64,000 nucleotides of DNA from Desulfurobacterium sp. TC5-1. GTDB lineage: Bacteria; Aquificota; Aquificia; Desulfurobacteriales; Desulfurobacteriaceae. Location: NCBI RefSeq assembly GCF_000421485.1, contig NZ_ATXC01000001.1, positions 827,087 to 891,086 on the forward strand. Reading direction: 5' to 3'. The notes under the pieces were generated by a model that searched no databases, was not told the origin of the DNA, and was given only the letters and a program-made list of their open reading frames with translations. A program made the position numbers and the translations under genes. Positions within the stretch are counted from its first letter, which is position 1. The number at the start of each line of letters is the position of its first letter. Positions 52,492 to 56,763 of this stretch are shown piece by piece.

Positions 52492-53061
52492 GTGGCATCC
52501 ATAGACGTAAACCAGATATCAAAAGGTATGAAGCTGGAAATAAATGGCGACCCTTACGAAATAGTTGACTACCAGCACGTTAAACCAGGAAAAGGGCAGG
52601 CTTTTGCAAGAATAAAGCTAAAAAATCTCAGAACGGGGAACGTGGTTGAGAAAACTTACAAGGTTGGTGAAAAGCTTGAAGTAGCTGACTTTGAAGAGAA
52701 GGAAATGGAATACCTGTACAACGATGGAACATTCTACTATTTTATGGATACAAGAACATATGAGCAGATTCCGGTACCGGCAGAAAACTTAGGTGAAAAA
52801 GCAAAATTCCTTAAGGAAAATGATACCGTCCAGGTTCAATTCTACAAAGGAGAACCCCTATCTGTAAAACTTCCCAAAACGGTAATCCTCCAGGTTACAG
52901 AAACAGAACCAGGATTTAAAGGAGATACGGTAAATAACGTTCTCAAACCTGCTACTCTTGAAACAGGCGCAGTTGTTCAGGTTCCAACGTTCATAAACGT
53001 TGGAGAGTACGTGAAGATTGACACCGAAACAGGTAAGTACCTTGAGAGAGTTAACAAGTAA
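52492..53061 (+). CDS. efp: Elongation factor P
   Basis: Three-domain tRNA-shaped factor that rescues ribosomes stalled at polyproline. The 189-residue protein carries Lys34 in the loop HVKPGKGQA, the residue that is beta-lysylated in E. coli. The C-terminus has [17 protein letters not shown], the usual OB-fold end. The start is GTG 52492 after AGGAGGT. It heads efp-accB-accC, an arrangement common in many bacteria. No epmA/epmB is in the window, so the modification state is unknown. Confidence 0.96.
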
Positions 53062-53075
53062 TTTCGGAGGCTATT

Positions 53076-53531
53076 GTGATAGAAAAAATTGAAAATCTTT
53101 TAAAATCTCTTGAAAACAGCAGCATAGAAGAAGTTGAAATAGAGCTTGAAGGTCTCAAGGTAAAAGCCCGCTATTGCCGTCAAAAGACTTCTCCACCTGT
53201 AACGGTTGAAAGAGTTGTAGAAACAACAGTAGCATCGGCGCCAGCGGAACCCGCAAAGCCAGTAGCTGAAACACCGGAACCAGCAGAAAACATTCACATT
53301 GTTCGCTCACCAATTGTTGGAACATTCTATAGAGCACCTTCTCCAGGTGCCGAACCGTTTGTAAAAGAAGGGGATTTTGTTGAAAAGGGACAGACCCTTT
53401 GCATAATCGAAGCTCTAAAAGTTATGAACGAAATAGAATCCGACATATCAGGAAGAGTAGTAAAGATACTTGTAGAAAACGGACAACCTGTTGAATTTGA
53501 CCAACCGCTCTTCTACATAGAGAAAGTGTAA
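53076..53531 (+). CDS. accB: Biotin carboxyl carrier protein of acetyl-CoA carboxylase
   Basis: Carries biotin between biotin carboxylase and carboxyltransferase in the first step of fatty acid synthesis. The 151 residues have an N-terminal helical part, an Ala/Pro/Glu-rich flexible linker (about 50-72), and a biotinyl domain from about 76 with [15 protein letters not shown]. The biotinylated residue is Lys115 in [10 protein letters not shown]; the usual Met before Lys is Leu here. The start is GTG 53076. It lies 14 bp after efp and 13 bp before accC. Confidence 0.95.
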
Positions 53532-53544
53532 ACCGGAGTAGTCT

Positions 53545-54897
53545 ATGTTTAAAAAAATCCTGATAGCAAATAGAGGTGAAATAGCCGTTAGAATAATAAG
53601 AACCTGCCGCGAGCTTGGAATAAAAACGGTAGCTGTCTATTCAACCGCTGATAAAGACTCTCTACCTGTATTCCTTGCTGATGAAGCCATCTGTATAGGA
53701 AGTGAACGCCCTGCGGCAAGCTACCTTAATATTCCAGCCATCATATCGGCAGCCGAAGTTTCAGGTGCTGACGCCATTCATCCAGGCTACGGTTTCCTGT
53801 CTGAAAACCCCGGATTTGCAGAGGTGTGCAGAGCCTGCGGCGTTGAATTTATAGGACCATCTTCTGAAACGATGATAACGATGGGAGACAAAGCACAGGC
53901 AAGAGCAATAGCCCGGAAAGCTGGAATTCCAGTAGTTCCCGGCAGTGAAGCGACAAAGGACCCTGCAAAGATTCTTGAATTTGCAAAAAAGATAGGGTTT
54001 CCCGTTCTCATTAAAGCTGCCCACGGTGGTGGCGGCAGAGGTATGCGCGTCGTAGAATCAGAAGAAGGTGCAGAAGAAATAATCAGAACGGCAATGGCAG
54101 AAGCAGAAGCTGCTTTTGGCAACGGAGAAGTTTACGTAGAAAAGCTAATTTTACACCCAAGACACATAGAAATACAGATCATAGCAGACAGGCATGGAAA
54201 TATAACTGTTTTCGGTGAAAGAGAATGTTCCCTTCAAAGGAGACATCAAAAGGTGCTTGAAGAATCCCCTTCACCTTTTGTAGATGAAACTTTAAGGAAG
54301 AAACTTTATGAAGCTGCAAGAAAACTTGCGTTAGCAATTAAATATGAAGGTGCAGGAACCGTAGAATTTTTAGTTGATAAAGATAAAAACTTTTACTTTA
54401 TAGAAATGAATACAAGAATTCAGGTCGAACATCCAGTATCTGAAATGGTAACAGGAAAAGACCTTATAGCTCTTCAAATAAAAGCTGCTGAAGGCGAAAA
54501 ACTTGAAATGGCAGATCCAAAATTAAACGGTCACGCAATTGAATTCAGGATCAATGCCGAAGATTACAAGAGGAATTTCAGACCATCTCCAGGAAAAATA
54601 GAGAAACTGCTTTTACCTGGAGGATTTGGTGTAAGGGTCGATACACACGTTTATGAAGGCTATTCAATACCGCCTTACTACGATTCTCTCATAGCCAAGC
54701 TAATCGTTCACGGTGAAACAAGAGAAGAAACAATAATTCGTGGAAAGAGAGCTCTATCAGAATTTTTTATAGAAGGAAATCTTAAAACGACCATCCCGTT
54801 TCACCTTAAGCTGGTGGAAGATGAAGATTTCGTTAAAGGAAACCTTGACACAAAGATATTAGAAGATAAAATTTTAGGTAGGATAGTTTCTAATTAA
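53545..54897 (+). CDS. accC: Acetyl-CoA carboxylase biotin carboxylase subunit
   Basis: ATP-grasp enzyme that carboxylates biotin on AccB. The 450-residue protein contains [20 protein letters not shown] (N domain, split over two strands), [10 protein letters not shown], the glycine-rich ATP lid [22 protein letters not shown] and [12 protein letters not shown], all expected. Related pyruvate or acetyl-CoA carboxylase subunits of autotrophs share these motifs, but adjacency to accB and efp favours fatty acid synthesis. accA and accD are not in the window. Confidence 0.95.
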
Positions 54898-55023: not shown

Positions 55024-55527
55024 ATGTCCGCCGCTGCCAAACATGAAATGGTAAAAAACTGGATTCGACAGTACTTGAAAGAATTCGGCGAATATAACGG
55101 AACATTCGAGGAGCTTGCCAACTTAACAAAAACAAGTGCCTATCTTGTTAAAAAAGCCATAAATGAACTTGAAGAAGAAGATTTCTTAACGGCAGAATCC
55201 AAAAGAGGCAAGGGTTTAACACTCAAGCTGAATGAAAAAGAGCCTATAAAGGAGACAATTTCCGAAACGGCAGAGAAAATTGCCGAAGAAGAAAAAGAAA
55301 CAAAAGAAACAGGAGAAACAAAAACAGAAAAGAAAAAGAGAAAAACGTCCCTTCAGGACGAAGTGCTTTCATCTCTCCTTGGAAAAGACATAACTGTCTT
55401 TCTGATAAGCGGAACAAGGTTAGAAGGCCAGCTTCTTGACTTTGATAACTTCACCCTCTCTATGACGGCACCAAAAGGCAGATCATTAGTTTACAAACAC
55501 GCAATAGCAACGATAATATACGGATGA
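55024..55527 (+). CDS. Winged-helix/Hfq fusion protein 1
   Basis: A 167-residue protein with a C-terminal Hfq (Sm-like) domain. Residues 1-70 look like a helix-turn-helix/winged-helix unit (GTFEELANLTKTSAYLVKKA), followed by a Lys/Glu/Thr linker (71-107). Residues 108-167 are Hfq-like: TSLQDEVLSSLLGKDITVF, LISGTRLEGQLLDFDNF and LVYKHAIATIIYG. Gln111-Asp112 (E. coli Gln8-Asp9) and the YKHA motif (Lys56-His57) are conserved. Ordinary Hfq is about 80-100 residues with no N-terminal domain. AGGAGGTG precedes the ATG. The stop overlaps the next gene as ATGA. It may be the RNA chaperone of this organism, with an added nucleic-acid-binding head. Confidence 0.82.
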   Translation: MSAAAKHEMVKNWIRQYLKEFGEYNGTFEELANLTKTSAYLVKKAINELEEEDFLTAESKRGKGLTLKLNEKEPIKETISETAEKIAEEEKETKETGETKTEKKKRKTSLQDEVLSSLLGKDITVFLISGTRLEGQLLDFDNFTLSMTAPKGRSLVYKHAIATIIYG

Positions 55528-56024
55528 ACAGGATGAGAAGACACAAAACTCTTGAAGAACTGCAACTTGAGCTCATAGAAATGCTTGAAGAAAAAGGTGA
55601 ATTCAGAGGCTCTGTTTCAGAATTTATGAAGCTGTTAGATGTAAAGCAGGAGGTGGTAATTCCTCTCCTGAACAGCTTAAAGGCCTCCGGTGACATAAAC
55701 TACGAGGTTAATGGTGAAGATATCATAATCAGACCTGCCTCTTTTGCAACCGTACCGCAAATACTTACAGAAGAGCAAGAAAAAGAGATAAACGAAAAAC
55801 TCAAAGAAGGATACAGGTTAGTTGCATCGTCACTCCTTGGAGGCGTTCAGAGTAGAACACTGAGGAATCTCATTAATAAAAGGGTTATTGTATTCTTTAG
55901 AAACGGCTCAAAAGTTGAAGGTAAACTCAAAGGATTTGATAGGTATGTCCTCAGAATCAACTCATTCATGGGGAAAATGTTAGTCTATAAGCACGCCATA
56001 ACAACAATAATATATAAGCCGTAG
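55524..56024 (+). CDS. Winged-helix/Hfq fusion protein 2
   Basis: A 166-residue paralogue of the preceding protein, read from ATG 55524 overlapping its stop. Residues 1-70 again form a helix-turn-helix-like unit (GSVSEFMKLLDVKQEVVIPLL). A helical, acidic linker (71-108) leads to an Hfq-like domain at 110-166: LRNLINKRVIVFFRNGSKVE, GKLKGFDRYVLRINSF and LVYKHAITTIIYKP. The YKHA motif is kept, but the Gln-Asp pair of the proximal RNA site is replaced by Arg-Asn. Loss of that site plus the coupling suggests that the two proteins form a mixed ring. Function is inferred only from the domain. Confidence 0.78.
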   Translation: MNRMRRHKTLEELQLELIEMLEEKGEFRGSVSEFMKLLDVKQEVVIPLLNSLKASGDINYEVNGEDIIIRPASFATVPQILTEEQEKEINEKLKEGYRLVASSLLGGVQSRTLRNLINKRVIVFFRNGSKVEGKLKGFDRYVLRINSFMGKMLVYKHAITTIIYKP

Positions 56025-56052
56025 AGGCTCAAAACCTCTACGGCCAACTTAA

Positions 56053-56763
56053 TTATCTGCTACCTACCTTCATATTGTGGCAGGTCATACAATCCATCTT
56101 TGTCTTGTAAATACCAGGAGCACTCACGGGTTTAAAGGTTCCATTATGGTAAGCGTTAAGAAGTTCTACGGTCTTTTTCGCAACATCGGCGGTTAGCCTT
56201 GCACACCTTTCAGACCTTGCCTTGCTGTCATAGGCAAAACCTGTCTTCTCTATCCACTTCATAACGGAAACGTGACAGAGAGGTGATGTTGCAATACTTG
56301 CCGCAAAAGCCCCTTTATATTTGGCAGGATGCTTCGGATAATAGATTGGAAGCGGTGTTTCTTCATACCATCTGTAAAGAGCGTCAATCACCTTCTTCCA
56401 GCCTTTACAAGAGATAGAGATAATGGCGGCAGCACCGTTTAAAGTACCACAAATGGTTCCCCAGCCGTTTATACCACCTTTCCCGTATTCAAATAGTTCT
56501 CCCGGAATACCAAGATAAGGACCACCTACGCTCTCTTTAAGCGTATCAAGAATTGATGCAAAAACACCATAGGCGCAGTGGCCTTTTAAATAATATCTGT
56601 AGGCTTTCTCAGCTATCATATCAGGATCTATAGGCTTATAAGGATAAGGTGGTTCCATCTTTTTAGAACCTGCAACTGCGGCAGCGCCTGAAAGGCCGCC
56701 AACAACAAGACCGGCAGTTCCAATAAGGCTTTTTACGATGAATTCTCTTCTTTTGTTACCCAT
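56053..56763 (-). CDS. Exported split-Soret-like cytochrome / C_GCAxxG_C_C protein
   Basis: A 236-residue periplasmic redox protein. The N-terminus has a twin-Arg signal (KRREFIVKSL, hydrophobic 15-31). The Cys pattern resembles the C_GCAxxG_C_C family: HCAYGVFASIL (Cys63), WGTICGTLNGAA (Cys105) and Cys119. SPLCHVSV and a C-terminal CMTCH (225-229, heme c) suggest kinship with the split-Soret cytochrome of Desulfovibrio, which binds heme between subunits. GGGAGGGA lies before the ATG, with a TATAAT upstream. Electron partners are unknown; no reductase gene is adjacent. Confidence 0.78.
   Translation of the reverse strand: MGNKRREFIVKSLIGTAGLVVGGLSGAAAVAGSKKMEPPYPYKPIDPDMIAEKAYRYYLKGHCAYGVFASILDTLKESVGGPYLGIPGELFEYGKGGINGWGTICGTLNGAAAIISISCKGWKKVIDALYRWYEETPLPIYYPKHPAKYKGAFAASIATSPLCHVSVMKWIEKTGFAYDSKARSERCARLTADVAKKTVELLNAYHNGTFKPVSAPGIYKTKMDCMTCHNMKVGSR

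Follow-up and report, generated by a model that had tools for sequence, protein, structure and literature searches.

Hfq is usually treated as a one-domain, one-gene homohexamer. Among the described systems closest to the locus analysed here, PafB and PafC are paired paralogues that combine a winged helix with a WYL domain of Sm fold, for which both a resemblance to Hfq and the conservation of a loop at the RNA site have been noted (PMC6789036), and single-stranded DNA (ssDNA) bound at the WYL domains activates this winged-helix regulator (PMC11804915). Fusions of a zinc finger to an Hfq-like domain are found on plasmids of Thermococcus and Methanocaldococcus and were, to the knowledge of the authors who described them, unique to these (PMC3543421). 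We analysed a 64,000-nucleotide stretch of the Desulfurobacterium sp. TC5-1 genome (the window; contig NZ_ATXC01000001.1, positions 827,087 to 891,086), in which two tandem genes each encode a predicted winged-helix head followed by a C-terminal Hfq/Sm domain. The whole bacterial family to which the window belongs, the Desulfurobacteriaceae, keeps this paired, specialised Hfq with predicted DNA-binding heads beside an ordinary Hfq.

Both genes lie on the forward strand, protein 1 (167 aa, with a charged linker between head and Hfq domain) at 55024..55527 and protein 2 (166 aa, with an ordered linker) at 55524..56024, each defined by its open reading frame (ORF), a match to PF17209 and an AlphaFold2 (AF2) model. 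In line with the first-pass annotation, which had seen an Hfq/Sm core at the end of both proteins, PF17209 matched protein 1 with 52.2 bits and protein 2 with 50.0 bits (Pfam cut-off 27), and at E ≤ 0.1 it matched 80/80 protein 1 and 65/65 protein 2 members. These members form the alignments used throughout: for protein 1 the window copy, standing for P0001, and 79 of the 90 other hits (11 were left out), and for protein 2 the window copy and all 64 hits. The Sm domains comprise residues 110–166 of protein 1 (55351..55521; Pfam match to residues 110–165, model and Foldseek) and residues 110–164 of the strongly basic protein 2 domain (55851..56015; Pfam and AF2 model). Both were modelled as a helix followed by the five strands of the Sm fold, and both C-termini matched solved Hfq structures by sequence and by predicted fold (Foldseek, VIA). 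The Hfq equivalog model TIGR02383 (cut-off 61.7 bits) was missed by both, with 54.4 and 48.6 bits. The Hfq site numbers used below were mapped by hand from the E. coli numbering.

The approximately 70 N-terminal residues of each protein were modelled by AF2 as a winged helix, as had been suspected before, so that the unit occurs in two tandem copies. The protein 1 head (residues 3–69, 55030..55230; AF2 model, VIA-align and wing motif) has predicted helices at residues 3–21, 28–35 and 39–51 and strands at 23–26, 55–60 and 64–69, with a wing formed by R61-G62-K63-G64. By fold it matched DNA-binding winged helices (VIA-align), the best of which were DNA-bound regulators. It resembles the winged helices of GntR/HutC, CtsR and CodY in predicted fold and in its glycine-basic wing, but the usual ligand domains of these regulators are replaced by Hfq. 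PF00392 (GntR) was matched at E ≤ 0.1 by 37/80 protein 1 members and stands in the precomputed list of P0006; in the window protein it reached 16 bits, below the cut-off of 27. The wing motif [KR]G[KR]G was present in 78/80 protein 1 sequences, with a mean wing charge of +3.1, and in 0/65 protein 2 sequences. The protein 2 head (residues 10–71, 55551..55736; AF2 model and hhalign), which lacks the RGKG wing, aligned with the protein 1 head in hhalign (94.7%, E 5.7e-8) and is acidic, with a mean net charge of −9.0 over the 65 sequences; it was hardly probed by the fold search, its match list being filled by Sm rows. The linkers differ as well: that of protein 1 (residues 73–105, 55240..55338) is charged, was modelled with a pLDDT below 50 and varies from 11 to 47 residues in the family, whereas that of protein 2 carries a predicted helix and strand (residues 83–102, 55770..55829) and measures 34–37 residues in all 65 members.

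The pair shares with PafB/PafC and other WYL regulators an N-terminal winged helix joined to an Hfq-resembling Sm-fold domain (PMC6789036, PMC4012209), the organisation as two paralogous genes in one operon and a conserved loop joining strands 4 and 5 where Hfq has its proximal site. In contrast to the WYL regulators, neither window protein matched a WYL model in Pfam up to E 10, both bear a true Hfq signature, and the WCX extension is absent, there being no room for it because the proteins end 8–12 residues after K56-H57. The pair therefore does not belong to the WYL/PafBC proteins, and it would form rings rather than the heterodimer of PafB/PafC; by analogy it may nevertheless work like them. 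The archaeal-plasmid fusions likewise place a nucleic-acid-binding domain N-terminal to an Hfq-like domain, but this is a C2H2 finger, encoded by a single plasmid gene beside a helicase, in place of a winged helix (PMC3543421); the window proteins contain no cysteines and matched no zinc-finger model in Pfam. The double-Hfq proteins of Sphingomonadaceae (NF010691/PRK14091), which came next after the family's own proteins among the profile-search matches listed, also encode two Hfq-type domains together, one of them diverged, but carry both in one chain with no winged helix, whereas the window proteins have one Hfq domain each; NF010691 gave 38.9 and 20.7 bits against a cut-off of 270. With canonical Hfq, including that of Aquifex aeolicus (PMC5379935), the pair has in common the Sm fold, the Q8/K56/H57 pocket and the YKHAI motif, whereas canonical Hfq is a single domain of ~70–100 aa with its rim arginines present. 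The architecture had been put forward as new: PafB/PafC and the archaeal-plasmid fusions precede it, and a winged helix combined with an Sm fold in a paired regulator is thus already known, but no description of one fused to a genuine Hfq domain was found among the openly licensed papers listed, among which we also recognised no native mixed Hfq ring and found no paper on Hfq in Desulfurobacterium or Thermovibrio.

The distribution of the pair was determined in 136 genomes of the phylum (22 of the window family, 2 of a sister family and 112 others). Protein 1 was present at full length in 21/22 and protein 2 in 20/22 family genomes; the genome lacking both (G130) is 62% complete and has zero Hfq matches, and in the one lacking only protein 2 (G122) the contig ends beside protein 1. 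The protein 1 head alone was found in 23/136 genomes, namely 21/22 of the family and 2/2 of the sister family, and in 0/112 of the remaining ones. Genera with relatives of the pair include Desulfurobacterium, Thermovibrio, Phorcysia and Balnearium, the nearest named protein being from D. indicum (84%); among cultured species, Thermovibrio ammonificans and Desulfurobacterium thermolithotrophum have both genes. By identity, the 91 protein 1 and 64 protein 2 hits belong to this family, except P0091, an ordinary Hfq of Rhodobacteraceae. A profile search for fusions elsewhere covered the best 120 of 302 matches, and a scan of genome contigs (80 of 83 loci kept) gave 11 full-length matches, all in Desulfurobacteriaceae. 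A mobile element was rejected as the source, as no full-length match occurred in plasmid, phage or viral collections: none of 3 phage and 52 plasmid records covered 80% of protein 1, those listed (10 of 52 plasmid rows) matching in the Sm domain only, and of 18 pattern matches on viral contigs 0 were confirmed. The window pair itself is located on a chromosome-sized contig, directly 3' of efp-accB-accC (52492..54897, forward strand; TIGR00038, TIGR00531 and TIGR00514 of NCBIfam above cut-off, and BLAST clusters), and the same position was found in 20/20 family loci read, with gene names checked in the window.

The ORFs as called in the window overlap as ATGA, as the first-pass annotation had stated, but the usual start of protein 2 in the family aligns with Met4 (55533), which, judged from the alignment, is more likely the real start than the one in the four-base overlap. 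Using the first start codon, the −4 overlap is seen in 5/19 pairs, and the distance from the protein 1 stop to the protein 2 start ranges from −23 to +15 nt in 19/19 complete pairs; the tandem genes are probably translationally coupled. Compared with the nearest relative, G125, dN/dS was 0.087 for protein 1 and 0.036 for protein 2, at dS values near saturation (1.2 and 1.7), and two further comparisons were largely saturated. Since the pair is conserved in 20/22 family genomes and its dN/dS against G125 is low, it is more than a chance arrangement. An annotation fusion or frameshift was rejected, the ORFs being unbroken both here and in related genomes, and a recent pseudogene or fast-evolving paralogue was rejected on the same dN/dS values.

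A canonical hfq had been reported as missing, which holds within the window; the same genome has, flanked by miaA and hflX, a copy (G000:C1:170248-170439; 99.5 bits) that passes the NCBI cut-offs and reaches 93.0 bits with TIGR02383. The pair is therefore additional to an ordinary Hfq, and three Hfq matches were found in 20/22 family genomes. A normal hfq elsewhere, coupled with absence of the pair from close relatives, had been named beforehand as evidence against the idea; the former was found, but the pair is present in 20/22. In f4-family loci (L027–L033) the miaA–hflX slot holds a short Hfq of ~63 aa, with a second, longer Hfq elsewhere in the genome, and two Hfq genes per genome appear to be usual in the phylum. 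In a tree of Sm domains (64 rows; 62 columns, bootstrap not settled, the decayed Sm domains of the sister family left out), the domains of both proteins formed one clade separate from every other Hfq row (99/97), and those of protein 2 were a tight group (100/100) on a long branch (1.12). This single clade points to one fusion followed by tandem duplication, and since the sister-family heads match the corresponding family heads (hhalign 99.6% for protein 1 and 95.7% for protein 2), the duplication would predate the split of the two families. From the sequences this is the simplest history, within the limits of the short alignment and of the omission of the sister family's Sm domains.

The two copies are specialised in opposite ways. 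The proximal-pocket residues Q8, K56 and H57 are invariant in 145/145 aligned sequences. The first-pass annotation had the proximal Gln-Asp kept in protein 1 and lost from protein 2; protein 1 indeed keeps it, but in protein 2 the Gln is still present (Q109) and the Asp alone is replaced (S110), position 9 being D in 80/80 protein 1 and S in 65/65 protein 2 sequences. Position 41 is N in 79/80 protein 1 and R in 65/65 protein 2 sequences, positions 13 and 27 are R in 65/65 protein 2 sequences, and position 33 (Q33) is E in 145/145. Among the rim arginines, R16 (L/I in protein 1, L/I/M/V in protein 2) and R17 (G/N, one K) are lost from both proteins, and R19 is retained in protein 2 only. The net charge of the protein 2 Sm domain is +9 to +13 in 65/65 sequences, whereas 43 comparison Hfq domains, hand-picked from the loci retrieved, span −3 to +7, and the acidic head and the very basic Sm domain occur together in all 65. 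This fixed, opposite specialisation fits one mixed ring. Two separate homo-rings with different ligands, encoded in tandem only for co-expression, appear quite unlikely to us: judging by sequences and models, each Sm domain keeps its Sm2 motif and its two edge strands and could thus close a ring of its own, and the long branch of protein 2 agrees with this, but subunits of one complex would better explain why the genes are strictly paired 1:1 in tandem in both the family and its sister family and why the proximal faces differ reciprocally.

With somewhat less than even confidence, and largely by analogy with PafB/PafC, we favour a mixed Hfq-type ring in which a nucleic-acid ligand controls transcription, because the single-strand pockets are retained, a DNA-type wing is present on one subunit, pairing is strict and the proximal faces differ reciprocally. 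Both gene products would assemble into one ring, whose Sm domains would bind RNA or ssDNA and whose winged heads would bind double-stranded DNA. Protein 1, with its GntR/CtsR-like basic wing, would be the DNA-reading subunit, and protein 2, with its basic Sm domain, would offer the strongest RNA-binding surface. As long as no RNA is bound, the acidic head of protein 2 might cover the protein 1 wing or an Sm surface, much as E. coli Hfq has an acidic tail that mimics nucleic acid (PMC5606850). General chaperoning of small RNAs would remain with the ordinary Hfq. Beyond the fold predictions, all steps of this scheme are what we infer. A more far-reaching version, possible but rather unlikely, is that the two-subunit Hfq ring is a DNA-binding transcription factor in which RNA or ssDNA on the Hfq face switches which heads are free for promoters; true Hfq would then have arrived independently at the principle of PafB/PafC, and bacteria would have a counterpart of the eukaryotic mixed LSm rings.

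Some translation and RNA factors have winged helices that bind RNA, and the heads might instead be extra RNA-binding arms of an RNA chaperone or ribonucleoprotein scaffold that matches or holds RNAs which ordinary Hfq does not; this is unlikely in our estimate, given that the protein 1 wing resembles DNA-binding wings of the GntR type, with DNA-bound regulators as best fold matches, and that the protein 2 head is strongly acidic. Several observations weigh against the mixed, DNA-reading ring. The confidence of the protein 1 model is modest (pLDDT 67.6, pTM 0.38), its head missed every curated cut-off in the window protein, and only the wing is basic within it, the whole head having a charge of −1 in the window and +0.2 on average. 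The protein 2 head of the window matched no helix-turn-helix model in Pfam and lacks the basic wing. Neither an operator nor a U-rich leader proved to be conserved, and the efp-accBC neighbours point to no regulon. In the sister family, most of the Hfq signature is gone from the Sm domains and the charge split between head and Sm domain is not retained (protein 1 heads +5 in 9/9, protein 2 heads −1 and +1, Sm domains near neutral). If true, a mixed ring reading RNA and DNA would join RNA-based and promoter-based control in one particle; it would also show an Sm ring turning into a ligand-sensing transcription factor, with implications for how WYL-type regulators arose. As the family is thermophilic, the two proteins are good candidates for structural studies.

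In the sister family the pair (L025 1495–2451 in G114; L026 833–1770 in G113) lies 3' of rpe in both genomes, not of accC (rpe was checked in one). With a threshold of E ≤ 0.001, the plain protein 2 query missed its sister-family counterpart, and the profile that found this counterpart contains it by construction. The sister Sm domains matched the two Sm sets of the family poorly or crosswise (hhalign 8.8% and 91.1%), and orthology, as far as it can be read from sequence, rests on the heads. No Hfq above cut-off was found in either sister-family genome, G113 having one weak match (E 0.009). The sister-family pair may represent decay of Hfq into something else. Alternatively, the proteins might bind DNA in a local or architectural role, either associated with the nucleoid or autoregulating efp-accBC, with an Sm ring that does no more than multimerise the heads. 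This would accord with a position after accC that is invariant in 20/20 loci and with sister-family Sm domains that lose the RNA-binding signature while the protein 1 head is kept (99.6% for the head, against 8.8% and 91.1% for the Sm domain). We consider it improbable, as the sister-family pair stands behind rpe and the window family keeps the RNA-pocket residues Q8, K56 and H57 in 145/145 sequences.

Other features around the locus were also inspected. Rfam gave no match within the window. A pyrimidine-rich tract before the protein 1 start, considered as a U-rich autoregulatory leader, is shared by the window and G125 but absent from G124 and G126, and was not used; nor was a promoter-like TTGACA-16-TAAAAT at 54845-54872, as 8 such sites were found where 7.3 were expected by chance. 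A hairpin of 13 pairs (56017-56045) overlaps the protein 2 stop codon and is terminator-like for the opposite-strand gene, although such hairpins are no commoner in the window than in shuffles. This convergent gene (56053-56763, reverse strand) encodes a protein of 236 aa that matched C_GCAxxG_C_C (PF09719, 40.5 bits) and, below the cut-off of 400, a split-Soret cytochrome c model (177.6 bits), and that ends in a CxxCH motif.
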